From Lachnospiraceae bacterium (lineage in GTDB: Bacteria; Bacillota; Clostridia; Lachnospirales; Lachnospiraceae), in assembly GCA_024696005.1 (NCBI GenBank), contig JAILHF010000020.1:1-43632 (forward strand): a stretch of DNA of 43,632 nt, in the 5' to 3' direction. Numbering within the stretch: the first letter of the stretch is position 1; each line of letters begins with the position of its first letter. The position numbers and the translations under genes were made by a program. Below are positions 5,733 through 41,369 of the stretch, piece by piece. The notes below the pieces were generated by a model. The model searched no databases, had not been told where the DNA came from, and worked only from the letters and a program-made list of their open reading frames with translations.

Positions 5733-5781
5733 TTCCGCTTCTTCGCATCTGATAAATGTTTACGTGCCCGCGCCGCGATCC

Positions 5782-8775: not shown

Positions 8776-9762
8776 TTACAGCATCGGCAACACCTTCTGT
8801 TCAATAAAATCAACCCTGTCAAAGATACGCGCCTTGAATGTGCCCGTCATGCCCACAGATACATTTCTTTCTTTGTTTACATAGATGATATTTCCGCTGT
8901 CACCGATCGCCGCATATACCTCTTTATCATCATGGGGTTTGTACCATAAGTAGCCGTAGTTCATGAATCCGAATCGTTCACCAAGCTTAACGTGAGGCGC
9001 CAGCATGTCTTTTACGTATTCTTCGGAAATGATCCTCTTTCCGCCATGAAGCCCGCCATCCAGTACAAGCGCCCCGATCACAGCCATGTCTTTTGCCGAC
9101 ATGCATAATCCCCAGCCTGCGGTAACACTGCCCTGCGGATCAGTGTACCACTCATGTTTTCTGGGATTCTTGTTCATGAAGAAGTCGAACTGGTCTTCTT
9201 TGGAGCTGTCACCGTGCGGTATCCGGTCCGGAAGTCCCAACGGCGCAAAGAGATGCCTGTTCGCAAAATCGATGCACTTTTCGGCTGTTGCTCTCTCAAT
9301 GATCCCCACAAGGATCTGAATCCCAAGGGTCGCGTACCTGAATTCTCCGGTGATCCCGTTTCGTCCTCCGAGATGATCGAGGATTGCAAGTGTCCAATCC
9401 TGCGAAGTGCAGACTTTTTTCCAGGGCTCCGACTTTCCCTTATAAGGTGCCGTCATGGTAAGCAGATGTCTGACCGTAACATCATAAATGGTCTTCTCGC
9501 CCCGCTTAACAACATGATCAGGGAAGAAATCCATCACCTTTTGATCCACGCTTCTGATAAATCCTTTATCCAGCGCGATCCCTGCAAGCAAAGCCGTCAC
9601 GCCTTTGGTCACGGAATTGACATTCATCGCATCCTCTGTCTTAAACCCGCGCCAGCAATCATCAAAAGCCATGTCACCATCTTTGATCGCATATATCTGA
9701 CAAATATTGCTTTCGTTTCCTTTGCTCTCTGAAATAACTCTGTGAAGTTCTTCCTTATTCAT
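8776..9762 (-). CDS. Class C beta-lactamase-like serine hydrolase (328 aa)
   Basis: Penicillin-binding/beta-lactamase fold. The catalytic tetrad S-V-T-K is at residues 50-53 (NVNSVTKGV), followed by the DVTVRHLLTMTAPY segment typical of this family. The tyrosine motif is YAT (143-145) in place of Y-x-N, and the third motif is GDSGN rather than H-x-G. It has no signal peptide, so it is probably a cytoplasmic esterase or amidase rather than a true beta-lactamase. The start at 9762 has GGAGGGAAAAG just upstream. The upstream TetR/membrane-protein unit ends in a terminator at 9821-9841, so this gene may have its own promoter. Confidence 0.88.
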   Translation of the reverse strand: MNKEELHRVISESKGNESNICQIYAIKDGDMAFDDCWRGFKTEDAMNVNSVTKGVTALLAGIALDKGFIRSVDQKVMDFFPDHVVKRGEKTIYDVTVRHLLTMTAPYKGKSEPWKKVCTSQDWTLAILDHLGGRNGITGEFRYATLGIQILVGIIERATAEKCIDFANRHLFAPLGLPDRIPHGDSSKEDQFDFFMNKNPRKHEWYTDPQGSVTAGWGLCMSAKDMAVIGALVLDGGLHGGKRIISEEYVKDMLAPHVKLGERFGFMNYGYLWYKPHDDKEVYAAIGDSGNIIYVNKERNVSVGMTGTFKARIFDRVDFIEQKVLPML

Positions 9763-9820
9763 CTTTTCCCTCCTCTTTTTTCAAGATTCGGACGTCCTGA
9801 AAAAGATGTTAAGTGAATTA

Positions 9821-9841
9821 AAAATGCTTTTCAAGCATTTT
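9821..9841 (-). terminator. Intrinsic terminator after the TetR/membrane-protein operon
   Basis: Stem AAAATGCTT (9821-9829) and AAGCATTTT (9833-9841) with loop TTC. On the minus strand the stem ends in TTTTTAATTC. It sits immediately 3' of the membrane-protein stop at 9843. Confidence 0.65.
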
Positions 9842-9842
9842 T

Positions 9843-10472
9843 TTATGAAGCTTCCTTTCCTCTTTTTCCGAAACGGAAATGATGAAAGGAAAGAATTCCG
9901 ATGGGCAGAAAATAAACACACCACGCAACAAGTGCAAGCCTTCCGCCGAGCCCGTCGCCACCAGAGGACATCTTTGCAAATATTCCCGTCATCGGCATGA
10001 ACGTGCAGCTGAAGTAGAACACTCCGTGTATCATCAACAACGCTCTGAGCCACTTGTCCGTCTTTTTCTCCGGCTTCATCGAAAGTCCTGTGAAGAAGGT
10101 AGAAAGTGCCATTACACCGTAGCCGAGCATATCATAGTTGAAGATAAGCCCGTAATTACTGAATACCAGCAGCTTTGCCGCCTGTTCATTCAACTGTTCG
10201 TTATTTACCGTGGTCAGCTGTGAAAAATAGACGAGCATGATAAATGTGCCGTACAGCGCCGCAAGGATCAAACCCGTGCTCGCAGCGACTTTGCGGTCAT
10301 CCTCGCACTCGTTGTAAAGACCTGCCGTCATCATGATAAAGCCTACCGGCAGGATCAGGCAGACAAAATAGCTGCCCATGGTAAAATCGATGATCTCAAA
10401 AATCGCAAACAGAAACACTGTTGCCGTTACGATCGCTGAGCCTGCCTTCGATATCATCCCGTTCATGTCCAT
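9843..10472 (-). CDS. Six-helix integral membrane protein (209 aa), unknown function
   Basis: Six hydrophobic helices with short loops: about residues 12-30, 33-52, 65-85, 105-130, 142-162 and 180-198. A mildly charged loop KPEKKTDKW and a basic end GKRGKEAS are seen. I do not recognise a named family. The start at 10472 has AAAGGAGAG upstream. It lies 15 nt after the TetR gene and must share its operator-controlled promoter, so it is the probable target (for example a sensor, exporter or stress membrane protein). A near-identical 3' remnant of a paralogue lies at 3540-3605. Confidence 0.75.
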   Translation of the reverse strand: MDMNGMISKAGSAIVTATVFLFAIFEIIDFTMGSYFVCLILPVGFIMMTAGLYNECEDDRKVAASTGLILAALYGTFIMLVYFSQLTTVNNEQLNEQAAKLLVFSNYGLIFNYDMLGYGVMALSTFFTGLSMKPEKKTDKWLRALLMIHGVFYFSCTFMPMTGIFAKMSSGGDGLGGRLALVAWCVYFLPIGILSFHHFRFGKRGKEAS

Positions 10473-10487
10473 TTATCCTCTCTCCTT

Positions 10488-11108
10488 TCAATTTGTTTTA
10501 TATGCATATATGCTGTTAAACTGCCGGATGTGCGCTTCCATCGTTTTCAGCGCCTCTGCCTCACGCTCCGGTTCCCGGTCACACACGGTCAGCAGCAGAT
10601 AGATCGGCGCGTAAAAATGCAGCGTCATGATCTCCACGTTTTCGGCCTGCAGAACACCCGCGGAGACCATCAGCCCCAAGAGCATGCCCTCATAGGAAAG
10701 CGGATCATCCACATACTGTTTCATGTATGCAGCCGCAAGTGTCCTGTCACGAAACTGTTCGATGGTAAGCATCTTTCGTACGCGTCTTGTATAATCGTCG
10801 TGAAGGAAATACAGAAAAAGGTTGTTCCCGAGAGCGATCAGCTGTTCTTCCGATATCTGCTTATAGATCTCCGCATCCGCCAAAACGTCGGCTCCGTTGA
10901 TCTGCAGGACGTTTGCCTCCTCCAAAAAGCGCCTTTTCATCTCTTCAATGATCGCATCAAAGATGGCCTGCTTGTTTTTGTAGTGCTTGTAAAGAGACGG
11001 CGCTTTGATGCCGACCCGTGCTGCAATGTCCGCGACATAAACGTTTGCATATCCCTTTTCGGAAAACAGCGTCAATGCTTCCTCCAGGATCCTGTGCTTG
11101 GTATCCAT
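10488..11108 (-). CDS. TetR/AcrR-family regulator, copy B (206 aa)
   Basis: N-terminal DNA-binding domain TKHRILEEALTLFSEKGYANVYVADIAARVGIKAPSLYKHYKNK, then a helical effector domain. It is homologous along its length to the TetR at 1891-2523, but the recognition helix differs (IKAPSLYKHY here, ISKAALYKHF there). The start at 11108 has GAGGAAAGGAC upstream. It is the first gene of its transcript, followed by the membrane protein. Two GGCTAATT/AATTAGCC palindromes cover its promoter, so autorepression is likely. Confidence 0.93.
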   Translation of the reverse strand: MDTKHRILEEALTLFSEKGYANVYVADIAARVGIKAPSLYKHYKNKQAIFDAIIEEMKRRFLEEANVLQINGADVLADAEIYKQISEEQLIALGNNLFLYFLHDDYTRRVRKMLTIEQFRDRTLAAAYMKQYVDDPLSYEGMLLGLMVSAGVLQAENVEIMTLHFYAPIYLLLTVCDREPEREAEALKTMEAHIRQFNSIYAYKTN

Positions 11109-11144
11109 GTCCTTTCCTCTCTTTTTGTTCTTCCGAATGGCAGT

Positions 11145-11194
11145 TGGCTAATTTCAATTAGCCATATAATAAGCTAATTCAAATTAGCTGTCAA
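11145..11194 (-). promoter_or_regulatory. Promoter with two tandem TetR-type operators (GCTAATT type)
   Basis: On the minus strand, -35 TTGACA (11194-11189), a 17-bp spacer and -10 TATTAT (11171-11166). The spacer and its edges are the palindrome AGCTAATT-CA-AATTAGCT (11172-11189). A second, TGGCTAATT-TC-AATTAGCCA (11145-11164), lies just past the -10. Centres are 26 bp apart. The plan is the same as at 3468-3515 but the operator sequence is unrelated. Confidence 0.88.
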
Positions 11195-11254
11195 GAGAAA
11201 AATATTGTTTCTGCTTTTTTTCAAAAATGTGAGTGTTTTTTTCAGTGCGTTTCG

Positions 11255-11260
11255 TATAAT
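11255..11260 (+). promoter_or_regulatory. Possible promoter of the ECF sigma operon
   Basis: TATAAT at 11255-11260 lies 40 nt upstream of the sigma factor ATG, preceded by CG (CGTATAAT). No good sigma-A -35 is seen 17 bp upstream. The CGTA element recalls ECF-type -10 boxes, so self-transcription is possible but unproven. Confidence 0.4.
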
Positions 11261-11299
11261 ATTATGACCGGGTCAAAAAAAACACGAAAGGAGTTTACC

Positions 11300-11827
11300 A
11301 TGACCGACGCAAACGCCATCAGGCGGATACGCTCCGGCGAGGAAAAAGCCATCGCGGCACTCATGAACAAATACAGCCGCATGCTCTGGAAAACAGCCGC
11401 CGGAATACTCACATCCTCCGAGGAAGACATAGAGGAATGCGTGGCAGATGTTTTTATCACCCTGTGGCAGAAACCCGAACTGTATGATGAAACCCGCGGA
11501 AAGCTCTCCACCTGGCTGTGCAAGATGGCAAAAAACAAGGCACTGGACCGCCTTCGTTCCATCAAAGCCCGCAGGGAAGATCCCGTGGAAGAGATAGCAG
11601 AAACAGCGGCACCGACCGATGAGCGCGAAAGCGGATACGATCTGGAACAATACCTCAGCCTTCTTCCGGAAGAGGACCGCGAGATCGTAAAACGCCGCTA
11701 CTACGACGAGCAGAAGCCCGCCGAGATCGCGCAGGAAATGGGAATGGAAAAGAAGAAAGTCGAAAACAGACTCTTCCGTTCCAAAAAGAAGCTGAAAGGC
11801 ATGCTCATGGACATGAGCACAAGCTGA
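11300..11827 (+). CDS. ECF-type sigma-70 family RNA polymerase sigma factor (175 aa)
   Basis: Region 2: GEEKAIAALMNKYSRMLWKTAAGILTSSEEDIEECVADVFITLWQKPELYDETRGKLSTWLCKMAKNKALDRLR, containing the core-binding and -10 recognition segments. Region 4: LSLLPEEDREIVKRRYYDEQKPAEIAQEMGMEKKKVENRLFRSKKKLK, the -35 helix-turn-helix. Length and two-domain layout are typical of extracytoplasmic-function sigma factors. AAAGGAG lies 6 nt before the ATG at 11300. The next gene encodes a single-pass membrane protein 34 nt downstream, the usual place for the anti-sigma factor. Confidence 0.93.
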   Translation: MTDANAIRRIRSGEEKAIAALMNKYSRMLWKTAAGILTSSEEDIEECVADVFITLWQKPELYDETRGKLSTWLCKMAKNKALDRLRSIKARREDPVEEIAETAAPTDERESGYDLEQYLSLLPEEDREIVKRRYYDEQKPAEIAQEMGMEKKKVENRLFRSKKKLKGMLMDMSTS

Positions 11828-12794: not shown

Positions 12795-14213
12795 TTAATT
12801 GTACAGCGTCTTTGCCATCTGACCGATCACATCGGCTGCGGCATGAAGCTCCTCGATCGTTGCGTTGATGGTGCTCATCTCCTCGGTTTCTTCCCGGATG
12901 CTCTCACTGATCAGGCGGATCTTTTCGAGGATGTCCTTGACGGAGGTATTCACATTTGTAAGCTTTTGTGAGATGTGCTCCGTAGTCTCCTTGGAGGAAT
13001 CGGAAAGCGTGCGCACCTCCTGTGCCACCACGGCAAAACCACGGCCCGCATCTCCGGCTCTTGCCGCTTCTATGGATGCGTTCAGGGAAAGCAGGTTTGT
13101 CTGGCTGGCAATGTCCTGGATGCTGCCGATGATCTCCATGGACGCACTTACCGCCTCCTCGATCACATTGGCCGCTTCCGTCAGTTCATCCTGTCTCACG
13201 GCCACTTCCTGCATCTGATTGGTCGCCTTCTCCACATTGCCCGCGATCTCGGCAATGCCCGAACGCAGGGAATCGATGTTGGGATCCATCTCCTGTTCGA
13301 AACGTACCTTGTTCTTTTTCTGTTCCGAAATATCCAGTATGGTGCCGGCAGCCATGACGGGCACTCTGCCTTCCCATACCACATAACTGGAGGCTCTCAC
13401 CCAGACATACTCTCCGTTCTTATGCCGGATCCGGTACTCCATGTCGAAGACATAATTCCCGCTGGGATCCGCAAGCTGTTTTCCCATAGCCTCCGATGCT
13501 CCGGGCACATCATCCGGATGGATCCTGGTGATCCAGGACTGCATGATATCCGGAAATTCCGGGGAATGCTCACTGAAACCGAGGATCTTCTTGAACTGCG
13601 CGGAATAGACCATCGGCGAAGCCGGGTCATCGATCGCGTATTTCGTAAGATCCATGCTCCAGCTGCCTTCCAGCATCATCTTGTCTACTGCAAGCTGACG
13701 CCTGGAATCATGTTCAAAGATCTCGGCATTCTTTTTCTGTTCATCGATATCCGAAAACGTGCCGATGAACTCCCGGGGATTGCCGTTCGGCCAGCGCAGG
13801 CATTCTCCCGCCGCATGGAACCATTTATATCCGAAGCTTTTCGTTTTGATGCGGTAATCCACATCGTATTTTGTGCGGCCGGTCCGGTCCCCTGCCGCCG
13901 CCCCATATGCACTGAAGGCCAGCTCCGTATCATCCGGATGGATGATGCTGCCCAGGGAATCCAGCGTATCCGGCAATTCCTGCTTGCTGAAACCCAGCAT
14001 TCTCCGGAACTCTTCGGTATAATGCACACTCTTTTGATTCCCGTTCTCATCGTAATGGCATTTCCAGATCCCGAGATGCGTGCTGGCATTGACCGCTTCC
14101 AGCTCGGTCTCGCTGAATTCCAGTTTCTCTTTCAGCTCTGCAATTTGCTGCTCCAGATCCGAGATCCGCGCATTGTTTCCCTGCTCCTGTGCCGATTTCG
14201 ATTTTCCGAACAT
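12795..14213 (-). CDS. Soluble PAS-PAS methyl-accepting chemotaxis-type protein (472 aa)
   Basis: Domains in order: an N-terminal coiled coil (about 15-45), PAS/PAC 1 (about 45-160, with [32 protein letters not shown]), PAS/PAC 2 (about 175-300, with [19 protein letters not shown]), then an MCP signalling domain with the hairpin tip [34 protein letters not shown]. No membrane helix or HAMP domain is present, so it is a cytoplasmic sensor, perhaps of redox or a small ligand through PAS. The signalling domain is shorter than in classical MCPs. GGGGG precedes the ATG at 14213. No che genes are nearby. Confidence 0.92.
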
Positions 14214-30690: not shown

Positions 30691-30722
30691 AAAAAAGGCA
30701 TGTCAAAGCTTTTTGACATGCC
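30691..30722 (-). terminator. Intrinsic terminator of the BMP/kinase/OYE operon
   Basis: On the minus strand GGCATGTCAAA, loop AAGC, TTTGACATGCC, then TTTTTT. It lies 43 nt after the OYE stop. Confidence 0.92.
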
Positions 30723-30765
30723 CGGGCCCCCCCCTCTGAAACGGGGAAAACAGCAGGTTGTTAAT

Positions 30766-31845
30766 TTATGATTTGACTTTTTGCGCCTGCTTGGCGGGAC
30801 ATTTGTGAGGCATCCCCGGTCCGTACTGGCAACGCGGACAGTCGAAACATTTGGCAAATTCCCTGTCCTCCAGAACCGCCTTCGGGAAAGCCGGATCGGC
30901 AAGGACCGCCCGGCCGAGGTCCACGGTATCGACCAGCTCGTTTTCGATCAGATACCTCACGGTCGAAGCTTCGTTGATGCTGTTTACACAGGATACCGGG
31001 ACCCGGCCCCGGAAATGTTCGTGAAAACGGACCCCGAGAGAGCAGATCGCGTTGTAAGGCCGGTCTTCCTCATCCTTCACCGTGGGATCCTCCCATTCGA
31101 TGCCCGTTGAAACCTGCAGATAATCACAGCCGGCTTTGACATATTCTTCCGCGATCTCGATGGCGGATGCCACATCCGGCTCAATGCCGGCCGTTCTCAC
31201 GGAAAGGAGAAAGGCATCGCCGCACTCCGTCCGCAGCCTTCTCAGGATCTCCGATGCAAAACGGGCGCGGTTTTCGGCATTTCCGCCGTATCCGTCCGTG
31301 CGGAGGTTCGTCTTTTTCGAGATGAACTGGTTGATCAGATAACCGTGGCAGCCGTGAAGCTGTATCCCGTCATACCCTGCCTCTTTTGCACGCAGCGCCG
31401 CGCTCACAAAGCTGTCCTGCATCCCGCGGATCTCTTCGGCATCCATCTCCTTCGCAAGCACCTCCGGATTCCGCGTGGGAACTGCCGACGGGCCCATCGC
31501 CGGGCCGCAATCGGGATTCGCCCCGATCCCGGTATGGTTCAGCTGTATGATGACCGCCGCCCCGTTCTCGTGACAGGCTTTCACGATGGCGCGGTGGCCT
31601 TCGATCTGTCCATCCTCCCACAGGCCCAGATGGTTCTTCGCGAATCTTCCTCCGGGCGTGACCGCCGTGGCTTCCACGCAGATCAGCCCGCATCCGCCTT
31701 CCGCCCGCTTCCGGTAATGGGCGATGTGTTTTTCGCACACCTTCCCATCCGGCCCGGCATAATCAAACTTGACCGTGGGCGCCATGGTCATTCGGTTTTT
31801 CAGCGTTGTTCCGTTGATGGTGATCGGATCGTTCACATGCGTCAT
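30766..31845 (-). CDS. Old Yellow Enzyme-type NADH:flavin oxidoreductase (359 aa)
   Basis: TIM-barrel FMN enzyme of the OYE / 2,4-dienoyl-CoA reductase group: motifs IQLNHTG, GYDGIQLHGCHGYLINQFISKKTNLRTDGYGGNAENRARFASEIL and VDLGRAVLADPAFP are typical. A C-terminal cysteine run CFDCPRCQYGPGMPHKC follows; longer family members bind an Fe-S cluster here, and this one lacks the NAD-binding extension. The start at 31845 has GGAGG 8 nt upstream and is preferred to 31851. It follows the hybrid kinase by 27 nt and ends in a terminator, so it is probably the last gene of that operon. The substrate is unknown. Confidence 0.9.
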   Translation of the reverse strand: MTHVNDPITINGTTLKNRMTMAPTVKFDYAGPDGKVCEKHIAHYRKRAEGGCGLICVEATAVTPGGRFAKNHLGLWEDGQIEGHRAIVKACHENGAAVIIQLNHTGIGANPDCGPAMGPSAVPTRNPEVLAKEMDAEEIRGMQDSFVSAALRAKEAGYDGIQLHGCHGYLINQFISKKTNLRTDGYGGNAENRARFASEILRRLRTECGDAFLLSVRTAGIEPDVASAIEIAEEYVKAGCDYLQVSTGIEWEDPTVKDEEDRPYNAICSLGVRFHEHFRGRVPVSCVNSINEASTVRYLIENELVDTVDLGRAVLADPAFPKAVLEDREFAKCFDCPRCQYGPGMPHKCPAKQAQKVKS

Positions 31846-31872
31846 GCCCATTCCCTCCTTTGCAAAAAACTG

Positions 31873-34629
31873 TTACGCTTTGCGCTTATCGATGCAGCTT
31901 ATGATGCTGTCATAATCGAAATTCGCCGCCGCCGTTTCCATTTCCTTCCAAAGCGCGGCGTCCTCTTCCGGCAGACTGTATCCTTCCAGTTCCCCCATGA
32001 CCTGGCGGATCAGATCGCAGTCCATCTCATCCGCTGCCTCCCGCAGCCTGCGAAAGACATCCGCCATCCGATCCGGATCGGCCACAGGCCGGTCCGTGCT
32101 CTCCTTTTCGGCAAAGACCGCGGCAAGCGGTTTTTGGAAGCTCTTAAACTCGCGGACAAAGGCCGCATGGTTTTCGCGGATATAATCAAGGTCGCCCCTC
32201 TTGCCGGCTTCCTCCAGCTTCCGGGCCATCTCCCCGAGGCCGGCGGCCCCGACGATCCTGGCCGAGCTCTTCAGCGCATGCACCTTGATGGTATAATTCC
32301 GGATGTCCTCCTGCGCGTACAGTTCGTCAAGCTCCCCGGCTTTCTCTTCAAGGGAGGTGTAGAAGAAACGCAGGACCGAAACATAGGCCTTCGGGGAGCC
32401 GCTGTTCTGGATCCCGGCATCGATGTCGATCCGCTCCTCGCTCTTCAGGCGGAGAAGCTCCTCCGGCTCCTCCCGGCGTTCCTTCGAAAGCTCTTCCGAA
32501 GAGCCCTGCTGCTCCGTCGCCTGCGATGTCCGGATCTTTTCCGCAGGCAGATATTTCCGGAGCATCTGCTCCAGCTTCCCGCTTTCGATGGGCTTCGCAA
32601 GATAATCATCAAAGCCGGCAGCCAGATACTGTTCCCTGGCTCCGGATACCGCATTGGCCGTCAGGCAGATGGTCTTTGTATCCCGGTTCGGGTTCTGCTC
32701 CTTCGAACGAAGCTCCTGCAGGGTCTCGATCCCGTCTTTTTCCGACATCATGTGATCCAGGAAGATCAGGTCGTAGTGCTTGTTCTCCGTGAGCGCAAGG
32801 CATTCGTCCCCGCTCTCCGCCATGTCGACCCGGATCAGGGTGCGCTTCAGCAGGCTTTTGAACACCATCAGGTTCATGGGATTGTCGTCCACCACCAGAA
32901 CATCCGCCGTCGGCGCCGTAAAGCGTCCTCCGGTCTTTTTCCGTTTCATCAGGGAGGCACGGGCGCAGTCCTCATAATCTCCCATGGGCTCCCGGGAGAC
33001 CACCTTCTGTCTCAGACGGAAGGAAAAGACGGATCCCTTTCCGTATTCGCTCTCCGCCTCCAAAGTGCTGCCCATCATCTCCAGCAGATGTTTGGTGATG
33101 TTCAGTCCAAGCCCGGTGCCCTCTATGCCGCGGTTTCGCTTTTCCTCGATGCGCTCGAACTCCGAAAAGAGCTTCGCCATGTCCTCTTTCCGGATCCCGA
33201 TGCCGGTATCGGCCACCGAAACATGAAGCAGGATCTCGTCTTCCGTATCCTCCGCGTTCTCATAGCCGACAGAAAAGGTGACGCTGCCCTTTTCCGTATA
33301 CTTGACCGCATTGGTGAGGATGTTGATGATGATCTGCTTGATCCGCACCTCATCCCCGTGCAGGATCCTGGGGATCCCCGGATCGATCTCGGTCTTCAGC
33401 AAAAGCTCCTTGTTCTCCGCACGCCCGCGTATCATGTTCACCAGGTCGTTGATCATCAGCGACAGGTCGTAATCCGTGGTAAAGATCTCCATCTTCCCGG
33501 CCTCGATCCTCGAAAAATCGAGGATGTCGTTGACAATGGCAAGAAGGGTATTGCCGGCATTCCGGACATTGTCGGCATACACAAGGACCATGCGGTCATC
33601 GCTTTCCCGCAGGATCATCTCGTTCATGCCCAGGATCGAGTTGATGGGCGTGCGTATCTCATGGGACATGTTTGCGAGGAAGTCGCTCTTTGCCCTGGAG
33701 GCCTCCTCCGCCTTTGCCTTTGCTTCCCGGAGGGCATCGCTCTCACGCGCCCTGATGGTCACGCGGCCGAGATAGAAGGCGCCCAACACCACCAGGAGCA
33801 TCAAAAGGCCGAATACCCATACCACCAGAAGCGTGATCTTTCCGATGCCTTCCGAAGCCACCGACTTCAGGACAAAGCCCGATACCAGGAAATCCGTTCC
33901 CGGGATCTCGGCCTCGAAGAGGAGCATTTCTCCCCTGTCCGTGGAAAAGCGCCTGGCTACCGCAACGGAAACCTCCATCTCCATGTGCATGGAAGCATAC
34001 TTTTGCCGGATGTCCGCGCTCTCGTACCAGGCCAGGTCCCGCTCACTGCTGTTATAGAAGGGAATGACAACACGGCCGTCCCTGGTGGTCACGCAGATCT
34101 TTCCCATGTCATCGTAGATCTCCGTAGACAGATACTCTCCCAGAACGGAGGAGGGGCACAGGCGGTAGAGGACGTAGCGGATGTTGGGCCCGTTGAACAC
34201 CGGGCAGGTAAACAGCAGGCCTTCCCCTTCCGCATAGGTTATGGCATGGTTCCCGCGGAAGGAGGACTGTATCCCCTCGTACACGGAGGCATCGATCTTT
34301 TCCCCGAAAACGGCTTCCCCGTCGAGGCCGAGCAGTCCCTGCTTCACTCCGGGTCCGAAGCAGAGGCGGGGCATCAGCTCCTCCATGTCATCCAGCGATG
34401 CCTCCAGACGCAAGGCGATGTTTTCCAGATCGTCCAGCTCGGTATTCAGTTTTTCCTCCAAAAGCAGCGCATAGACCTTCGCCTGTTCCTCCGTCTGCTT
34501 TTCCGTATAGGAATTCACCAGGGTCCCGATCCGGCTGTGCAGCACAAAGCCCACGGCCAGCAGGGCCAGCGCAAAAAAAGTCAGCATATACAGGGTTCCG
34601 TGTCCGTCGTAGTGTCTTTTCCTATTCAT
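31873..34629 (-). CDS. Hybrid sensor histidine kinase with REC and Hpt domains (918 aa)
   Basis: Membrane helices at about 13-31 and 264-288 enclose a sensor of about 230 residues (Cache-like size). Then HisKA with His323 (MSHEIRTPINSILGMNEM), HATPase (N box INILTNAVKYTEKG, G1 VADTGIGI, G2 GTGLGLNITKHL), receiver with Asp625 (VVDDNPMN, LIFLDHMMSEKDG, LAKPIE), and Hpt with His784 (KVHALKSSARIVGA). A further helical end follows. The layout supports a His-Asp-His phosphorelay. The ATG at 34629 lies inside the upstream BMP gene (8-nt overlap), with GGAG just before it. The likely ligand input is the two BMP proteins; the likely output is the REC-GGDEF protein of the same operon. Confidence 0.95.
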   Translation of the reverse strand: MNRKRHYDGHGTLYMLTFFALALLAVGFVLHSRIGTLVNSYTEKQTEEQAKVYALLLEEKLNTELDDLENIALRLEASLDDMEELMPRLCFGPGVKQGLLGLDGEAVFGEKIDASVYEGIQSSFRGNHAITYAEGEGLLFTCPVFNGPNIRYVLYRLCPSSVLGEYLSTEIYDDMGKICVTTRDGRVVIPFYNSSERDLAWYESADIRQKYASMHMEMEVSVAVARRFSTDRGEMLLFEAEIPGTDFLVSGFVLKSVASEGIGKITLLVVWVFGLLMLLVVLGAFYLGRVTIRARESDALREAKAKAEEASRAKSDFLANMSHEIRTPINSILGMNEMILRESDDRMVLVYADNVRNAGNTLLAIVNDILDFSRIEAGKMEIFTTDYDLSLMINDLVNMIRGRAENKELLLKTEIDPGIPRILHGDEVRIKQIIINILTNAVKYTEKGSVTFSVGYENAEDTEDEILLHVSVADTGIGIRKEDMAKLFSEFERIEEKRNRGIEGTGLGLNITKHLLEMMGSTLEAESEYGKGSVFSFRLRQKVVSREPMGDYEDCARASLMKRKKTGGRFTAPTADVLVVDDNPMNLMVFKSLLKRTLIRVDMAESGDECLALTENKHYDLIFLDHMMSEKDGIETLQELRSKEQNPNRDTKTICLTANAVSGAREQYLAAGFDDYLAKPIESGKLEQMLRKYLPAEKIRTSQATEQQGSSEELSKERREEPEELLRLKSEERIDIDAGIQNSGSPKAYVSVLRFFYTSLEEKAGELDELYAQEDIRNYTIKVHALKSSARIVGAAGLGEMARKLEEAGKRGDLDYIRENHAAFVREFKSFQKPLAAVFAEKESTDRPVADPDRMADVFRRLREAADEMDCDLIRQVMGELEGYSLPEEDAALWKEMETAAANFDYDSIISCIDKRKA

Positions 34630-35722
34630 AGATCTCCACACCTTCCGCGTACCAGTCAATGTGATTGAACAATTCGTCGTCCCCGATCCGTTCCTCGGCC
34701 GTGCAGCGTTCCTGCCCCGCGTTGTCGCGGATCTCGCCGGAAAACACGTCCCGCTGCGTGCATATCCTCTGTTTTTCGGCTTCCACCAGCTGCTTCGTCT
34801 CATCCGTTACCAGGTTTGAACAGGGATAGAGGGAAACCGCACCGTCCGGCAGTCCCAGCCAGTAGTCATTCTCGAAATTGGCCCTTCCGCTCAGAAAATC
34901 GGACAGCACCCTGTCGTACATCATGTCCCAGTTGATCAGGGCCGCCGTAAGGAAGCGCTCCGAATATTCCCCGCTGACGTAGTCATAGCCCGTGGTGTAA
35001 AGCCCCAGCTCGTCCGCCAGGTCGATGGAGTAGGTCTTGTCCTCGTGATAGGTCAGCACGTCCGCCCCGGCAGCCTTAAGCTCCCTTACCGCCTGTTCTT
35101 CGGCTTCCCTGTCGTCCCAGCTTCCGGTATAGTAAACAAGAAGCTTTGCGGACGGATCCGACATGCGGGCGCCCATGGCATAGGCATTGATGGAGCGTAT
35201 CGTCTCGGGCATGGGCATGGCCGTCACGTATCCGAGGATGCCGCTTTTTGTCGCGGCTCCCGCAACGATGCCGGAAAGATACCGTACCTGGTAATCCCTT
35301 CCGAAATAGGTGGAACTGTTTTCCGCTTCCTCCTCACCCGAGATGCAGTAAAAGGCGATCTTCGGATAGGCCCTTGCAATGGTGTCCAGCCAGGCACCGT
35401 ATCCGTAGCTCGTAAGAAAGATGCATGAACAGCCCTCCGCTGCCAGGGCGGCTACCGCTTCCTTCACGGCCTCTTCCTCCTCGGGCACGTTCATCCTCGC
35501 GTGGAAGCCGGCGGAATTCCGCTCGCAGGCCGCAAGGATCCCCTCATAATGGCTCTGGTTCCAGCCATTGTCATCGGCTGCCCCGATGAAGACGGCGCCC
35601 ACCGAGATGCCCTCCTTTTTTGCCTCGGGCCTAAAGCTCCAGATCAGGAGGATGATCCCGGCCACCACGAGCAGCGCGGCTATGTAAAAGGCGCCTTTGA
35701 CAAAGCTCTCTTTATTCTTCAA
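34622..35722 (-). CDS. Membrane-anchored BMP/PnrA-type binding protein 1 (366 aa)
   Basis: One N-terminal membrane helix (11-30) without a lipobox, so it is anchored rather than lipidated. The rest is a periplasmic-binding-protein fold of the BMP (basic membrane protein, PnrA/Med) family: VGAVFIGAADDNGWNQSHYEGI, CIFLTSYGYGAWLDTIARAYPKIAFYCISG, YQVRYLSGIVAGAATKSGILGYV and INAYAMGARM. BMP proteins bind purine nucleosides. The start is TTG at 35722 with GGAGGG 8 nt upstream. It overlaps both neighbours (11 nt upstream, 8 nt downstream). No ABC permease or ATPase is nearby, so a sensory role is likely. Confidence 0.88.
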   Translation of the reverse strand: MKNKESFVKGAFYIAALLVVAGIILLIWSFRPEAKKEGISVGAVFIGAADDNGWNQSHYEGILAACERNSAGFHARMNVPEEEEAVKEAVAALAAEGCSCIFLTSYGYGAWLDTIARAYPKIAFYCISGEEEAENSSTYFGRDYQVRYLSGIVAGAATKSGILGYVTAMPMPETIRSINAYAMGARMSDPSAKLLVYYTGSWDDREAEEQAVRELKAAGADVLTYHEDKTYSIDLADELGLYTTGYDYVSGEYSERFLTAALINWDMMYDRVLSDFLSGRANFENDYWLGLPDGAVSLYPCSNLVTDETKQLVEAEKQRICTQRDVFSGEIRDNAGQERCTAEERIGDDELFNHIDWYAEGVEIYE

Positions 35723-36854
35723 GCGTCACACCCTCCACATACCAGTCAAAGCGGTTCAGCATCTCGTCATCGGACATGGATTCCCCTTCCGGAACGCGCA
35801 GCTGTCCGGCATTATCGGTCACGGGTCCGTAAAAGACGTCAAAGGAGCGGTTCTCGAAGCGCGCTTTCGCCTCCTCCACCGCCGTCCCGGTCCCGGGTGC
35901 GCAGTTTTTCGTCAGCGCCGAGACCGCCACCATCCCTTCCTCCATGCCGATCCAGTCGTGTCTTCCGTAAAACTTTCCCTGCAGGCAGCTTAAGATCGCC
36001 TGGCGGTAATAATCCTCCCAGTTCCACACACAGGCCGTAAGATAGCTGTCCGGAAAAAGGGCGGCATTGTCCCTGTTAAAGCCGATGGAGCGGATCCCGT
36101 TTTCGGCGGCGATCCGGTCCGGCATCAGCGAATCGGTGTGCATTGTTAGGATATCCGTGCCGGGGTTCTGTGCGAGCAGCTTTCCGCACGCTTCCGCCGC
36201 CGCCTCGTCGTCCCCCCAGGAATTGATGTAGATCACATGAACCTCCGCATCCGGCGCAACGCTCCGCACCCCCAGGGTGAAGGCGTTGATCTGTCGGATC
36301 ACCTCCGGGATCGGAAAGGCCGCGGCATAACCGATCTCGCCCGTCTTTGTGCTCATGCCCGCAACGATCCCCGCCAGATACCTGGCCTGATACATCCTTC
36401 CCATGCAGGTGGCCAGATTGGCTGCGGTTTCCGTTCCGGTGGGCTGGATGAAGCACACCTCCGGATAGCGGTCCGCCATTTCCCGGACATACGCCCCGTA
36501 ACCGAAAGAGGCTGCAATAACCACCCTGCAGCCTTCCTTTTCCACCAGCTCCTCTATGGCTTCCGCGCAGCCTTCGTCCTGGGCCACGCTCTCTTTGCAG
36601 AGGATCTTCAGGTTCAGATCCTCTTCCAGACTCTTCAGGGAATCGTAATGCGACTGGGAATAGTTGGCATCGTCCTTTGCACCCGGGATGATAAGCCCCA
36701 CCTTTGTGGTTCGGGCGGTCACATCCGTCTCCTTGCGCACATCCCGGATCACCAGCATTCCGATGACGGCCGCCGACAGGATCAGGGCCACCAGAACGAT
36801 GAACACTCCACGGCTTCTTCCCGTGCTTCTTTTCCGCATCTCCTGCGTACCCAT
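35712..36854 (-). CDS. Membrane-anchored BMP/PnrA-type binding protein 2 (380 aa)
   Basis: Paralogue of the next gene. It has a basic start, one membrane helix (17-36), no lipobox, then the BMP fold: VGLIIPGAKDDANYSQSHYDSL, VVIAASFGYGAYVREMADRYPEVCFIQPTG, YQARYLAGIVAGMSTKTGEIGYAAAFPIPEVIRQINAFTLG. The end DNAGQLRVPEGESMSDDEMLNRFDWYVEGV matches the corresponding end of BMP protein 1 (DNAGQERCTAEERIGDDELFNHIDWYAEGV). Both ends are therefore conserved in this pair. The start at 36854 has AGGGGA about 10 nt upstream. Gap to the REC-GGDEF stop is 6 nt. Confidence 0.88.
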   Translation of the reverse strand: MGTQEMRKRSTGRSRGVFIVLVALILSAAVIGMLVIRDVRKETDVTARTTKVGLIIPGAKDDANYSQSHYDSLKSLEEDLNLKILCKESVAQDEGCAEAIEELVEKEGCRVVIAASFGYGAYVREMADRYPEVCFIQPTGTETAANLATCMGRMYQARYLAGIVAGMSTKTGEIGYAAAFPIPEVIRQINAFTLGVRSVAPDAEVHVIYINSWGDDEAAAEACGKLLAQNPGTDILTMHTDSLMPDRIAAENGIRSIGFNRDNAALFPDSYLTACVWNWEDYYRQAILSCLQGKFYGRHDWIGMEEGMVAVSALTKNCAPGTGTAVEEAKARFENRSFDVFYGPVTDNAGQLRVPEGESMSDDEMLNRFDWYVEGVTLEE

Positions 36855-36860
36855 AAGCTG

Positions 36861-38207
36861 CTATTCCCCTGCCTTTTCCAGATAGCGGAACACATGCTCC
36901 ACCGTGACGCCCTCCGAATACCCCGAGCGTTTCCACACCTCCATGATGCGCTCCGCGGCACCCTCCGCATCTGCCCCGCTCCTTTCCGTCAGTAGGGCAA
37001 AGATGCTGTCGACTCCGTTTCGGATGACGATATCGCTCATCCGGAGGGCCTTTCGGAGCACGTCCTCAAACTGCGCGCATTTTTCGGCCAGCATTCCGTC
37101 GTTTTCGCCCTCCTGCAGCTTTAAGGTGAACATCATCAGAATGACATCCCCGCCGAAGCGCTTGTAATAGCGCCTGATGAAGCGGTAGACCGGTCCGAAG
37201 GAATCGTTGCCCAGGGTCATGGCGCCGCCCTGATCACTGCGCTCCTCCATGATCCGCATGGTGCGCTCCAGCTTCCGGTCCGCATCGTCTTCCTCCGGCT
37301 CTGCCGTTTCCGAAACGGGAGAATAGACGGCGTACCCGTGCTTTCCGTTCTGCTTTACGCCGTACAATGCACTGTCCGCAAGGGTAAACAGCTCTTCCAT
37401 CTCCGTGCCCTGTCTCGGCACCATAACGGCTCCCGCCGATACACCGATGGGAAGCCCATGGTCCTCTCCCAGCAGCCGTGCGGTTTCCGAGCGGACCGCC
37501 TCGTTCAAACGTCCCACCAGTTCCGCCAGCGCCTTTTCCTCAACAAGTCCCTCGCAGAAGAGCAGGAACTCATCCCCGCCTATGCGGGCCGGGACATCGC
37601 CTTCTTTCATGTTGTTCCGCAGGATCTGTGCAAAAGCCTCCAGCATCTTATCGCCCATGTCGTGACCGAACAGATCGTTGACGAGCTTGAAGCTGTCGAG
37701 ATCCATGATCACAAGGGCACCTTCCGTGCTGCGGCACAGCTCCGCGATCTTTTTCGTGCCGTGGGCTTTGTTCAGAAAGCCCGTCATCCGGTCCACCGCC
37801 GCTTCCTCCGTGAGGGAGACGATGGTCCTGCTGTTGGTGATGGTGTTCTCGATGCGTCTTAACAGCACTTCCTTATTAAATGGCTTGCGTATGAAGTCGG
37901 CCGCGCCGATGGCCAGCCCCTTCTGCTCCACCTCGTCATCCCGCTCCCCCGTAAGAAAGATCACCGGGACAGGGGGCCTGCCCGCCTCCTCCTCACGCTG
38001 CCGCAGCGCCCGGAAGGTCTCGAAGCCGTTCAGATCGGCCATCAATATGTCCAGAAGGATCAGATCCGGCTCATTCTTTTCCATGAAGCGCAGCAGATCC
38101 TTGCCCGAGCGCAGACAGCTGACACGCAGGTCCTCATCGCTGAGCATGTTCTTTACATTTGTCAGGCTCAAGGCCTCATCATCAACCACAACGATCCAGT
38201 ATCCCAT
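36861..38207 (-). CDS. REC-GGDEF diguanylate cyclase response regulator (448 aa)
   Basis: Receiver at 1-120: VVVDDE, Asp53 in LILLDILMADLNG, Lys in FIRKPFN. The GGDEF domain (135-300) has the intact signature ARIGGDEFLLF at 210-214 and FGHDMGDKMLE, so c-di-GMP synthesis is expected. The inhibitory RxxD site is KEGD, so product inhibition may be lost. Residues about 325-440 resemble a second, inactive GGDEF-like fold (LRKALRMSDIVIRNGVDSIFALLTERSG). The start at 38207 has GGAG 6 nt upstream. It leads the operon with the BMP proteins and hybrid kinase, and is its likely phosphorelay output. Confidence 0.92.
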   Translation of the reverse strand: MGYWIVVVDDEALSLTNVKNMLSDEDLRVSCLRSGKDLLRFMEKNEPDLILLDILMADLNGFETFRALRQREEEAGRPPVPVIFLTGERDDEVEQKGLAIGAADFIRKPFNKEVLLRRIENTITNSRTIVSLTEEAAVDRMTGFLNKAHGTKKIAELCRSTEGALVIMDLDSFKLVNDLFGHDMGDKMLEAFAQILRNNMKEGDVPARIGGDEFLLFCEGLVEEKALAELVGRLNEAVRSETARLLGEDHGLPIGVSAGAVMVPRQGTEMEELFTLADSALYGVKQNGKHGYAVYSPVSETAEPEEDDADRKLERTMRIMEERSDQGGAMTLGNDSFGPVYRFIRRYYKRFGGDVILMMFTLKLQEGENDGMLAEKCAQFEDVLRKALRMSDIVIRNGVDSIFALLTERSGADAEGAAERIMEVWKRSGYSEGVTVEHVFRYLEKAGE

Positions 38208-38389: not shown

Positions 38390-38418
38390 ACTATATAATA
38401 TCAGCCCACGCTTTTCAA
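38390..38418 (-). promoter_or_regulatory. Promoter of the REC-GGDEF/BMP/kinase operon
   Basis: On the minus strand, TTGAAA (38418-38413), a 17-bp spacer and TATAGT (38395-38390). Transcription should start near 38383, 175 nt before the ATG. Confidence 0.75.
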
Positions 38419-38507: not shown

Positions 38508-38540
38508 GGAGCAAACTTTTTGTTTTGCTCCTTTGTTTGT
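38508..38540 (+). promoter_or_regulatory. Leader hairpin with U-tract, possible attenuator
   Basis: Stem GGAGCAAA (38508-38515) and TTTGCTCC (38524-38531), loop CTTTTTGT, followed by TTTGTTTGT. It lies about 11 nt after the expected start and 25 nt before the binding-protein ATG. The hairpin plus U-rich tail looks like a weak terminator in the leader, so read-through may be controlled. Confidence 0.5.
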
Positions 38541-38564
38541 AAAAGGGAGAAAAGGAGAGGAATT

Positions 38565-39419
38565 ATGAAAAAGAAGATCGCAGCAAGTATCTGTGCCGCA
38601 GCGGCAATGTGCAGCCTCGCGGCCTGCACCTCATCGGCACCGGTCGAGAGCACCACGACTACGGAAGCCGGAACCGAGACCAAGAGTGCATCCACCATCG
38701 ACATCTCCGGCGCAAAGCTGATGAGCGAGGGCGTCCTCAGCGTGGGATGTGAGGTAGGCTACCCTCCCTTCGAGGATTTCGCGGAGGACGGAACCACCCC
38801 CATCGGCTATGACATCGACATCATCACAGCCGTTGCCGACAAACTGGGCCTGAAGGTCAACATCATCAATACCGCCTGGGACGGCATCTTTGCCGGCATC
38901 GGCGTGAACTACGACGTAACCTGCTCGGCAGTGACCATCACGCCCGAGCGCATGGAGACCATGATCTTTTCCACGCCCTACATCAGCAACTACCAGGCCG
39001 TGGTCCTGCTTGCGGGAGATGAGAAGAACATCACTTCCTTCAACGATCTGGACGGCATGTCCATCGCCCTGCAGAAAGAGACGACCTCCGATATCCTGAT
39101 GAGCGATTACAAGTCCACCGGAAGCATCGACGTGCAGATCGTGGCCAACGAGAAGGTCACCAGCTGCTTCACCCAGCTTCAGAACGGTGAAGTGGATGCC
39201 GTGGTCGTGGACAGCACCGTAGCCGACGGCTATATCAACGGATCGGATGTCTTCCGCATCGCTTACAAGGATACCAGCGAGCCCGAGCAGTTCGGCATCG
39301 CCATGTCCCCCGAGAATACCGGCCTGCAGACAGCCATCAACCAGGCCCTGAAGGAGTTGGAGGAGGAAGGCTTCATCCAGCAGACCTATGATTACTGGTT
39401 CGGCGCGGCAGCGGAATAA
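38565..39419 (+). CDS. Polar amino acid ABC transporter substrate-binding lipoprotein (284 aa)
   Basis: Lipoprotein signal with lipobox LAAC, Cys21, and a Thr/Ser-rich linker. The mature part is a SBP_bac_3 (His/Gln/Cys-type) fold: VGCEVGYPPFEDFAEDGTTPIGYDIDIITAVADKLGLKV, WDGIFAGIGVNYDVTCSAVTITPER, FNDLDGMSIALQKETTSDI, and AMSPENTGLQTAINQALKELEEEGF. It captures the substrate at the outer face and hands it to the permease encoded next. Polar amino acid specificity (for example Gln, Cys or His) is inferred from the family, not read from a motif. The start at 38565 has AAAGGAGAGG upstream. Confidence 0.93.
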   Translation: MKKKIAASICAAAAMCSLAACTSSAPVESTTTTEAGTETKSASTIDISGAKLMSEGVLSVGCEVGYPPFEDFAEDGTTPIGYDIDIITAVADKLGLKVNIINTAWDGIFAGIGVNYDVTCSAVTITPERMETMIFSTPYISNYQAVVLLAGDEKNITSFNDLDGMSIALQKETTSDILMSDYKSTGSIDVQIVANEKVTSCFTQLQNGEVDAVVVDSTVADGYINGSDVFRIAYKDTSEPEQFGIAMSPENTGLQTAINQALKELEEEGFIQQTYDYWFGAAAE

Positions 39420-39446
39420 AAAGCCGGCTCCACATGACCAAGAGGA

Positions 39447-39475
39447 CCGGGACCGGCTTCATGCGCCGGTCCCGG
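39447..39475 (+). repeat. Perfect hairpin between binding protein and permease
   Basis: CCGGGACCGGC (39447-39457), loop TTCATGC, GCCGGTCCCGG (39465-39475), an 11-bp perfect stem. There is no U-run, so it more likely protects the 3' end of the binding-protein message, giving more binding protein than permease, as seen in other ABC operons. Confidence 0.7.
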
Positions 39476-39506
39476 AGCAGAAAACAAATAAGACGGGTCC
39501 CCGGAT

Positions 39507-40580
39507 ATGAAAAATCAAAATGAGGCCGGAGAAGCAGCAAAACAGAGCAGCTCCGGTGAAAAGAAAAAGAAGTTTGACCTGAAAAAATACGCGAAGCAGC
39601 TGATCGTCATCGGGATCATCCTGATCGCCTGCATCATCCTGGCTTTCCTGAAACCGGGACAGCAGGCGCTGCTGTCGCACACTTCCCCCGCGATGCAGAA
39701 GATGATCGATGCGGATGCGAACCTGACGCGCAAACGCGTGACCGCCACCTACAACAGCCTCTTCATCATCGAATATGTGTCCCTCTCCACTTCCGGGGCC
39801 AATCCGATGAGTGAGCGCTATGTCGGTTTCCTGGGCAGGGTCTTCCCCGCGGATGAAGGCGCGATGAAGGTGGTGGGCCAGATGGTCAACTACACCTACC
39901 GCATGCTGGGCTGCGGGGAGAACCTGATGCACGGCGCCAAGCTCACGATCCTGCTCACCACGCTGACGGTGATCTTCGGTGTGCTGCTCGGCACCATTCT
40001 GGCCCTTGGCAAGATCAGCAAGCGCAAGTTCCTTTCAAAGCTCTCCGGAGCCTATATCTTCTTTTTCCGCGGAACGCCGCTTCTGATCCAGCTCTTCGTG
40101 GTCTATTTCACGGTGCCCGGGATCTTCGGCTTCGCCTGGAGGGATCTTTTTCCCGCTTCGGATGCGGAGGCCGTATACAAAGGCGCGTTTACCGCTGCCC
40201 TGATCGCCTTCGCGCTGAATTCCGGTGCCTATTGCGCCGAGATCGTGCGAAGCGCCATCCAGTCCATCGACAAGGGACAGTTTGAAGCCTCAAAGGCTCT
40301 GGGCATGAGCTACGGACAGACCATGGTGCGCATCATCATCCCCCAGTCCGTGCGGCGCATGATCCCCAACGTAAGCAACGAGTTCATCATGATCCTCAAG
40401 GACGCGTCCCTGGTCTTCGCCATTTCACTGATGGATATCACCACGATCTCGAAAAACATCATGACTTCGGAAGGATCGTATCTGGTATTCATCCCGGCTC
40501 TGGTGATCTACCTGGTGATCACCGCGTTTTTCGGATTCATCTTCAACAAGATCGAGAAAAAATTCTCTGTATACGAGTAG
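39507..40580 (+). CDS. Polar amino acid ABC transporter permease, HisM/GlnP type (357 aa)
   Basis: Inner-membrane permease. The core starts LMHGAKLTILLTTLTVIFGVLLGTILALG and contains the EAA loop EASKALGMSYGQTMVRIIIPQSVRRMIP that contacts the ATPase. An N-terminal extension is unusual: a basic KKKKFDLKKY, an extra membrane helix (about 32-50) and an outside segment of about 65 residues before the core. The start at 39507 has only a weak ribosome binding site. It is separated from the binding protein by a hairpin and followed 9 nt later by the ATPase. Confidence 0.92.
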   Translation: MKNQNEAGEAAKQSSSGEKKKKFDLKKYAKQLIVIGIILIACIILAFLKPGQQALLSHTSPAMQKMIDADANLTRKRVTATYNSLFIIEYVSLSTSGANPMSERYVGFLGRVFPADEGAMKVVGQMVNYTYRMLGCGENLMHGAKLTILLTTLTVIFGVLLGTILALGKISKRKFLSKLSGAYIFFFRGTPLLIQLFVVYFTVPGIFGFAWRDLFPASDAEAVYKGAFTAALIAFALNSGAYCAEIVRSAIQSIDKGQFEASKALGMSYGQTMVRIIIPQSVRRMIPNVSNEFIMILKDASLVFAISLMDITTISKNIMTSEGSYLVFIPALVIYLVITAFFGFIFNKIEKKFSVYE

Positions 40581-40589
40581 GAGGCCTTC

Positions 40590-41369
40590 GTGAGCGACAG
40601 TTACGAATACATACTGCGTACCGAACATGTGAGCAAACACTTCGGTACCAATGAGGTATTAAAGGACATCTCCCTTTCGGTAAAGAAAGGGGAAGTGATC
40701 TGCATCATCGGTCCCAGCGGTGCCGGAAAATCCACATTCCTGCGTTCCCTGAACCAGCTGGAAAAGATCACCAGCGGCAAGATCTTCATCCGGGATGAGC
40801 TCTTTCTCCACCGCGAGAACGATCATACCGTGGAAAAGCTTCCCCGGGAAAAACAGCAGGAGCTGCTGCTGGAAATGGGCATGGTGTTCCAGCGCTTCAA
40901 CCTGTTCCCCCACAAGACCGTGCTGGCCAATGTGTGCGAGGCACCCATCGTGGTAAAAAAGGAAAAGAAGGACGTGGTGGAAGCCAGAGCCAGGGAGCTG
41001 CTGAATCGCGTCGGCCTTTCGGAAAAAGCCGATGAGTATCCCAACCGTCTTTCCGGCGGCCAGCAGCAGCGTGTCGCCATCGCAAGGGCCCTGGCGATGA
41101 ACCCCGAGATCATGCTCTTTGATGAGCCCACCTCGGCTCTGGATCCGGAGCTGGTTGGCGAAGTGCTGAAGGTAATGAAGGAACTGGCGGATACGGGAAT
41201 GACCATGCTCTGCGTGACCCACGAGATGGGCTTCGCGAAAGAGGTGGCCGACCGCGTTCTTTTTATGGCCGACGGGATCATCGCGGAGGAGGGTACTCCC
41301 GAGCAGATCTTCACGGCACCCAAAGCGGAACGTACAAAGAACTTCTTAAACGCAGTGTTGGAGGCATAA
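40590..41369 (+). CDS. Polar amino acid ABC transporter ATP-binding protein (259 aa)
   Basis: ABC ATPase of the GlnQ/HisP group. Walker [11 protein letters not shown]-loop [18 protein letters not shown], signature [19 protein letters not shown], Walker [18 protein letters not shown]-loop [19 protein letters not shown]. All are intact. It starts at GTG (40590), with GAGG close by, 9 nt after the permease stop. An insert of about 15 residues ([17 protein letters not shown]) lies before the Q-loop. It powers import by the two preceding gene products. Confidence 0.96.

Follow-up and report, generated by a model that had tools for sequence, protein, structure and literature searches.

Why should two binding proteins of a transporter family be encoded between a cyclic di-GMP (c-di-GMP) regulator and a histidine kinase, with no transporter beside them? 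Bmp/PnrA-like proteins are usually found in an operon with an ATP-binding cassette (ABC) ATPase and permease, although this is not required. The question is raised by a 43,632 nucleotide contig of a Lachnospiraceae bacterium (JAILHF010000020.1, assembly GCA_024696005.1), which was analysed over its whole length and is referred to as the window; it is one contig of a 3.75 Mb genome in 74 contigs. Five tightly packed genes on the minus strand, from 38207 to 30766, encode a REC-GGDEF response regulator, two Bmp-family proteins (BMP1 and BMP2), a hybrid kinase and an OYE-family flavoprotein, and the gene order given by an earlier sequence-only reading was confirmed by coordinates and Pfam domains. 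No ABC permease or ATPase was found in the operon, either in the gene list or by Pfam, as that reading had stated, and the amino-acid ABC genes at 38520-41369 lie on the opposite strand. The cassette formed by the BMP and kinase genes is a real, conserved variant of the solute-binding-protein (SBP)/hybrid-kinase receptor. The best explanation of its function, held with moderate confidence, is an SBP-gated phosphorelay running from the BMPs through a double-Cache kinase to REC-GGDEF. The principal features are as follows.

36861-38207, minus strand: REC-GGDEF response regulator, 448 amino acids (Pfam Response_reg and GGDEF)
35712-36854, minus strand: BMP1, membrane-anchored PnrA/Bmp-family binding protein (Pfam Bmp)
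34622-35722, minus strand: BMP2, second orthologue group (Pfam Bmp)
31873-34629, minus strand: hybrid histidine kinase, 918 amino acids (Pfam HisKA, HATPase_c, Response_reg and Hpt)
33865-34512, minus strand: predicted extracytoplasmic double-Cache sensor domain of the kinase, residues 40-255
30766-31851, minus strand: OYE-family flavoprotein, last gene of the unit, 361 amino acids (Pfam Oxidored_FMN)

Conservation of the cassette

Searched against 397 genomes of the family, a sample from a larger group, a profile of the kinase sensor domain found 22 places, spread over 21 genomes. A BMP gene lay directly upstream of the sensor kinase at 21 of these 22 places, the sole exception (G367) being a sensor-GGDEF-EAL protein. 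The BMP1-BMP2-kinase cassette was carried by 20 of the 397 genomes, that of the window included. A BMP1 search gave 15 named loci, the closest named records being mostly Lachnospiraceae metagenome-assembled genomes (MAGs), and matches in 45 of 60 genomes (again including that of the window). Twenty BMP1-matching regions were examined; those outside the cassette were ABC-type, linked to methyl-accepting chemotaxis protein (MCP) genes or encoded long BMP-like proteins.

Thirty-five cassette loci, cited here by number and tightly ordered, were mapped: 27 with both BMPs, four with BMP1 only (L060, L062, L067 and L108) and four with BMP2 only (L094, L095, L103 and L100). In L100 an unlabelled 299-amino-acid open reading frame (ORF) at the contig end may be BMP1. 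Two of the loci, L064 and L065, come from nearly identical records of a single species, and L055 is cut before the kinase by a contig end, leaving 34 kinases. Since genera and families other than the window's share the BMP-BMP-kinase order, the cassette is not a chance arrangement. Five rows carry the labels of other families: Selenomonas ruminantium (three rows), a Veillonellaceae MAG and a Succinivibrionaceae MAG (on a 3.9-kb contig). These formed one group in the sensor tree, with support of 100/99, and likewise among the BMP2 rows of the BMP tree (100/99), but grouped weakly among the BMP1 rows (81/27), both trees being rooted at the midpoint. The grouping would fit joint transfer of the whole cassette; the single case from another phylum may be misbinned. 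In L060 a phage-integrase-family gene (5432-6577) directly follows the cassette kinase, an observation that bears on cassette mobility. A class-wide sensor search yielded matches in 7 of 391 genomes, the window's included, and nine weak places besides the window. All nine encode sensor-GGDEF(-EAL) proteins, of which two are cut, and no BMP was seen in the short surrounding sequence. Distant relatives of the sensor are fused directly to GGDEF-EAL.

Consistent linkage of the BMP genes to ABC genes had been named in that reading as one finding that would speak against its proposal. No BMP-type double-ATPase gene was detected within three genes of the cassette in the 35 maps, a check that used an ATPase reference only, with no permease search, and in which several maps end at contig ends. 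Single ABC ATPase matches near cassettes were confined to L058 and L094.

The tree of 31 BMP1, 30 BMP2 and four ABC-type rows placed each group on one side of a branch (99/93, 100/100 and 100/99), and BMP1 and BMP2 are two separate orthologue groups. The BMP2 gene of L069 is split across two frames and was excluded from the BMP2 counts. The sequence-only reading had raised a heterodimer as one use of the pair; an obligate BMP heterodimer is unlikely because loci with BMP1 alone or BMP2 alone exist.

Features of the BMP proteins and of the kinase sensor

BMP1 and BMP2 matched Pfam Bmp (PF02608) with 155.6 and 136.6 bits against a cut-off of 24.1. The N-terminal lipobox was missing in all 61 cassette BMPs (31 BMP1 and 30 BMP2) and present in all four of the nearest ABC-type BMPs. 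Matches to the pattern at residues 43-44 in BMP2 of L061, L064, L065 and L066 fall past the helix, where the folded domain begins. Within the N-terminal 60 residues every one of the 61 proteins has a strongly hydrophobic 19-residue stretch, with a mean hydropathy of 2.44 or more. The hydrophobic helices described by the sequence-only reading were thus recovered, and free of a lipobox; that they are uncleaved remains a prediction from sequence. Together with the position of BMP genes upstream of the sensor and the 35 maps free of a double ATPase, these data support a BMP-driven sensor complex, as had been proposed, rather than a transporter.

The kinase is ordered transmembrane helix, sensor, transmembrane helix, HisKA, HATPase, REC and Hpt, with a SHEIRTP motif from residue 322 (H322 or a neighbour), D625 in REC and H784 in Hpt. 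The sensor gave no Pfam match at E 0.001, and no Cache match by sequence. An AlphaFold2 model of the domain, made with 33 sequences, had a predicted local distance difference test score (pLDDT) of 85.2, and Foldseek returned double-Cache domains, with 115 matches at E <= 0.001 and a TM-score by query of 0.35-0.55 among the best 50 of these 115. The sensor accordingly models as a double Cache domain of the LuxQ-type fold. Against NCBIfam the kinase scored 276.4 of 1200 bits for LuxQ and 374.4 of 676.5 for TorS, both far below cut-off. The dCache purine motif (Y-R-W-F-D/N) was found in none of the 34 sensors, one of them cut, when sought with a loosened pattern built from residue numbers in PMC11245519 and not by alignment to McpH. 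No tryptophan is common to all 34, although about a dozen have one near residue 201.

c-di-GMP genes beside the cassette

A GGDEF gene was the immediate same-strand neighbour at 10 of the 35 loci (the window, L062, L066, L069, L092, L098, L101, L107, L109 and L110); the neighbour in L098 has no GGDEF motif, but an EAL. Other c-di-GMP neighbours were EAL in L057 and HD-GYP in L067, L096, L099 and L104, so that at least 15 of the 35 loci have an immediate GGDEF, EAL or HD-GYP neighbour, only some neighbours having been scanned with Pfam. In L064 a GGDEF gene lies two genes upstream of the cassette. The 10 of 35 compares with about 2% expected (P 2e-9, assuming independent loci, which in part are related), the expectation being calculated with an assumed 0.9 genes per kb over 31.85 Mb, where the rounded sizes sum to about 31.6 Mb. 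On the sensor tree the GGDEF-neighbour label needed 8 changes, at least 6, and was unclustered (158 of 500 shuffles were as low). A c-di-GMP output, as put forward in the sequence-only reading, is well supported by these neighbours, but the partner is interchangeable. No c-di-GMP riboswitch was found directly at the cassettes at Rfam gathering scores, in the 21 of 35 loci searched; the 23 sources scanned comprised these and the ABC-type loci L038 and L039. In L110 a c-di-GMP-I riboswitch (13905-13990; 37.9 bits, cut-off 35) precedes a large gene several kb past the BMP-kinase-REC-GGDEF cassette of that locus.

By motif reading, the REC-GGDEF protein of the window carries the phospho-acceptor D53 and GGDEF at residues 210-214, and its Foldseek matches were DgcR, WspR and PleD entries. 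Its I-site has Lys in place of Arg (KEGD, 201-204). The motif is readable in eight of the neighbouring GGDEF proteins at other loci, and RxxD is kept in six of these (L062, L066, L069, L092, L107 and L109) and not in L101 and L110. The tail of the protein is a further feature:

36879-37196, minus strand: putative degenerate GGDEF-like C-terminal domain of the cyclase, residues 338-443

Pfam GGDEF matched this region below cut-off (E 0.01). R389 and D392 (RxxD) are invariant in nine aligned proteins, and the GGDEF position reads GVDSI. In the model the order of helices and strands is GGDEF-like, with a pLDDT of 80 but a predicted template-modelling score (pTM) of 0.45, and the tail looks like a second, degenerate GGDEF domain. 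A paralogous protein with REC, GGDEF and tail precedes another hybrid kinase in L052, also in the window genome.

Further regulatory genes accompany the cassette. HisKA-REC genes directly follow the cassette kinase in L037 (11394-13172), L067 (8771-11620), L108 (3254-5128) and L096 (8505-11183), and in none of them did Pfam match a HATPase, for which there is also no space. The His box is kept in three of the four, and the BMP-linked kinase may phosphorylate these HisKA-REC proteins in trans. Regulators with a C-terminal REC lie beside or near the cassette in L061 (9091-9945), L064 (9033-9899), L065 (7528-8319), L092 (1751-2530) and L067 (12710-13561), and the N-terminal ~140-170 residues of those in L061, L092 and L067 gave no convincing Pfam match. 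Two other BMP arrangements were noted. In L040 (9138-13705; G053:C4) a BMP lipoprotein comes first, followed by 4HB-HAMP-SpoIIE, DUF6272, SiaC and GGDEF, a set presumably SiaABCD-like and a second kind of BMP-to-c-di-GMP linkage. In L045 (7573-10505) a BMP gene directly precedes a chemoreceptor gene (sCache_3_3 and MCPsignal by Pfam); like pairs occur in L043, L044 and L046, with L048 cut, all in genomes of the window's genus, and the BMPs of L043, L045 and L046 have a TACG lipobox.

The binding pocket and the predicted ligand

The best solved relatives of BMP1 and BMP2 were AtzT (6pi5; E 1.1e-54 and 7e-50), then 3s99. In AtzT, guanine lies between Tyr45 and Trp194 and contacts Ser97, the Phe98 backbone, Glu165, Asn218 and Asn220, and the dissociation constants are 0.11 µM for guanine and 2.5 µM for adenine (PMC6834077). 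The equivalent residues are Y65, S116, F117, E184, W213, H239 and D241 in BMP1 and W54, S105, Y106, E173, W202, H226 and D228 in BMP2, all AtzT residues or conservative equivalents; the last two are His and Asp as in 3s99. The stacking aromatic, Ser and Trp keep their type in all 61 rows, His becomes Gln in one row, and the last site is Asp or Asn in 60 and Ser in one. Other ABC-type BMP controls keep the pattern as well, whereas it is missing in the ABC-type BMP of L054 and in a 653-amino-acid BMP-like protein of L052; unreadable rows from L020, L021, L023, L028 and L032 were left out of the controls. Because ABC-type BMPs share the pocket, including that of L053 in the window genome, the pattern is a mark of the subfamily and not of sensing. 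The L052 protein (9674-11635) has a Bmp-like C-terminal half, in which the pocket is lost, and an N-terminal half with no Pfam match; BMP1-matching frames of similar length occur in many relatives.

Two of the nearest ABC-type BMP operons, L038 and L039, are preceded by a purine riboswitch (Rfam), and L039 includes a phosphoribosyltransferase gene (Pfam). Putative phosphoribosyltransferase-like neighbours in L038 and L042, and putative xanthine-dehydrogenase-like neighbours in L041 and L049, were read from start sequences. At the cassettes themselves no purine riboswitch was found among the 21 loci searched. Owing to the conserved AtzT pocket and the purine-linked ABC-type relatives, the best guess for the BMP ligand is a purine base of the AtzT/guanine type, which modifies the earlier proposal of a nucleoside; a base appears the likelier of the two. 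The only NCBIfam model matching the BMPs was ABC_BMP_B6, with 66.6 and 49 against a cut-off of 400.

The proposed phosphorelay and its alternatives

In the proposed phosphorelay BMP1 and BMP2 would lie outside the membrane with the N-terminal helix as a tether, and a purine base, or a close heteroaromatic compound, would be bound between their lobes. The BMPs would contact the double-Cache domain of the kinase, as LuxP does on LuxQ, and so set the balance of kinase and phosphatase activity. Phosphate may then pass from the histidine of HisKA to D625 in the kinase REC, to H784 of the Hpt and to D53 of REC-GGDEF, whose phosphorylation would alter c-di-GMP synthesis. The ligand, the BMP-kinase contact, the sign of the response, the phosphotransfer and the c-di-GMP targets are what we infer.

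Several observations weigh against this scheme. A Cys lies in or near the N-terminal helix in six of the 61 BMPs, though without the lipobox pattern, and eight of the 35 loci have one recognised BMP only. The pocket Glu is Gln in several rows, the position equivalent to Phe98 (a backbone contact) is variable, and the ABC-type BMP of L053, in the window genome, has an identical pocket. An SBP and a kinase encoded side by side do not necessarily interact: three SBPs of P. aeruginosa encoded near two kinases had no activating role (PMC11113362). No adjacent c-di-GMP gene was found at 20 of the 35 loci, where some of the neighbours were scanned with Pfam and some contigs end, and in L058 an OmpR-type regulator begins 1 nucleotide after the kinase. 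Finally, of 17 HisKA frames of at least 700 amino acids in the window genome, 8 lie within 4.5 kb of a GGDEF match in the same direction, a count which includes the window kinase, one frame itself holding the GGDEF match and two resting on below-cut-off matches; for smaller HisKA frames the figure was 3 of 25. On this own-genome control, the idea of a GGDEF linkage special to the cassette was dropped. Because large kinases lie near GGDEF in 8 of 17 cases, the linkage is partly a general habit; a hybrid kinase with GGDEF is a recurrent pairing in this genome, for which the BMP cassette provides one input module.

One alternative retains the BMP-gated kinase and gives its main output to an unlinked or transcriptional regulator, the adjacent cyclase serving another kinase. 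The 20 loci and the L058 regulator would be explained in this way, as would the lone RECs in L098 and L100 and the 8 changes of the GGDEF-neighbour label. However, REC-GGDEF is the only separate REC protein in the window operon, and at 11 other loci (L062, L067, L069, L092, L096, L099, L101, L104, L107, L109 and L110) the cassette has a REC-bearing c-di-GMP protein next to it; we consider a different main output unlikely, though a serious candidate.

A second alternative concerns the ligand, which could be non-purine: a pyridoxal-type compound, a sugar, another heteroaromatic or a peptide. The sole, sub-threshold NCBIfam match (ABC_BMP_B6) would agree with this, as would the replacement of Glu by Gln and of Asp by Asn in the pocket of several members and the sugar binding predicted for Bmp proteins of model bacteria (PMC9602780). 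Yet the positions whose side chains stack on guanine in AtzT or hydrogen-bond to it are conservatively kept, and purine riboswitches precede two of the nearest ABC relatives, so a non-purine ligand is improbable without being far-fetched. That the BMPs are transport subunits for an importer encoded elsewhere, the kinase sensing another signal through its own Cache, is very improbable: the genome does encode a BMP-ABC operon at another place (L053), with identical pocket residues, but the lipobox is missing in all 61 cassette BMPs, a BMP gene lies directly upstream of the sensor at 21 of 22 places, cassette genes overlap, and the sensors have neither the dCache purine motif nor a common Trp.

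Relation to known systems

The phosphorelay proposed here resembles LuxP-LuxQ, TorT-TorS and XylFII-LytS, in which an SBP acts on an extracytoplasmic kinase domain (PMC6321045); LuxQ has a tandem PDC (double Cache) and senses via LuxP (PMC8534201). In the cassette, likewise, an SBP gene is tied to a kinase with an extracytoplasmic domain, which is a tandem PDC in the predicted model, and the LuxQ score remains well short of the 1200 bits of that equivalog. Unlike these systems, the SBPs are of the Bmp family, usually two per kinase and helix-tethered, the kinase has its own Hpt and a REC-GGDEF gene lies in the operon. AtzT and 3s99 are alike in being the best solved sequence matches, with identical base-pocket positions, but AtzT is thought to serve uptake (PMC6834077), whereas the cassette BMPs have no lipobox and accompany a kinase instead of an importer. 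The dCache_1PU sensors, including V. cholerae VC2224 (PMC11245519), share a Cache fold and a route from purine to c-di-GMP; there the Cache binds the purine, while here the Cache motif is missing and the BMPs would probably bind it. DgcR, WspR and PleD share the REC-GGDEF fold and motifs and differ in having neither the degenerate GGDEF-like C-terminus nor the I-site Lys of the window protein. The entry 2hqb, 'transcriptional activator of comK gene', is also a Bmp-family protein annotated as a regulator; we take it to be Med of B. subtilis, and we know of no kinase partner for Med.

Of 22 SBP families, 13 have a known action on receptors, which include diguanylate cyclases (PMC9602780). Among the matches listed in the open-licence PubMed Central (PMC) literature no paper joined a Bmp-family protein with a kinase and c-di-GMP, and none described a system with this layout, in agreement with the sequence-only reading. 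The components belong to known types, and the novelty claimed lies in the combination, not in the principle of SBP-gated kinases.

Operon boundaries and the OYE gene

The five genes are likely one transcription unit, flanked by the following sites.

38390-38418, minus strand: promoter-like site before REC-GGDEF, TTGAAA-17-TATAGT (10/12 match)
30696-30723, minus strand: terminator-like hairpin after OYE, 12-bp stem and T-run

The hairpin has the longest stem among 17 such sites in the region (7.2 expected); promoter-like sites numbered 6 against 3.4 expected, which makes the promoter a weak candidate. The kinase very likely starts at the ATG at 34629 and not at the listed ORF start 34803, giving an 8-nucleotide overlap with BMP2 that is identical at 9 of 34 other mapped loci. 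BMP2 has a TTG start codon and overlaps BMP1 by 11 nucleotides, an overlap that recurs in relatives.

The OYE gene, listed as an operon member by the sequence-only reading, is indeed co-located. It was dropped as a component of the system because it was seen at only one of the 35 loci, that of the window, and it is probably a passenger. The OYE-like protein has a C-terminal Cys cluster (CxxCxxC...C) that could hold an Fe-S cluster, and is without the second oxidoreductase half found in long enzymes.

Significance

A wider claim can be made only tentatively, and we think it doubtful at present: that the cassette represents an as yet undescribed receptor class spread over several families, perhaps phyla, of gut and rumen bacteria, in which two old, membrane-tethered BMP orthologues whose purine-base pockets differ slightly would read two purines or their ratio and jointly gate one double-Cache hybrid kinase, with exchangeable REC-GGDEF, EAL or HD-GYP outputs setting c-di-GMP. 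If the proposed phosphorelay is correct, the reading of two binding proteins by a single kinase could be tested and compared across numerous natural variants, among them records titled Selenomonas ruminantium strains S137 and ATCC 12561. Bmp would then join the families of kinase-gating binding proteins, unless it is already among the 13 families of PMC9602780, and anaerobic bacteria of the gut and rumen would have a means of sensing purine bases outside the cell and of steering c-di-GMP by them.

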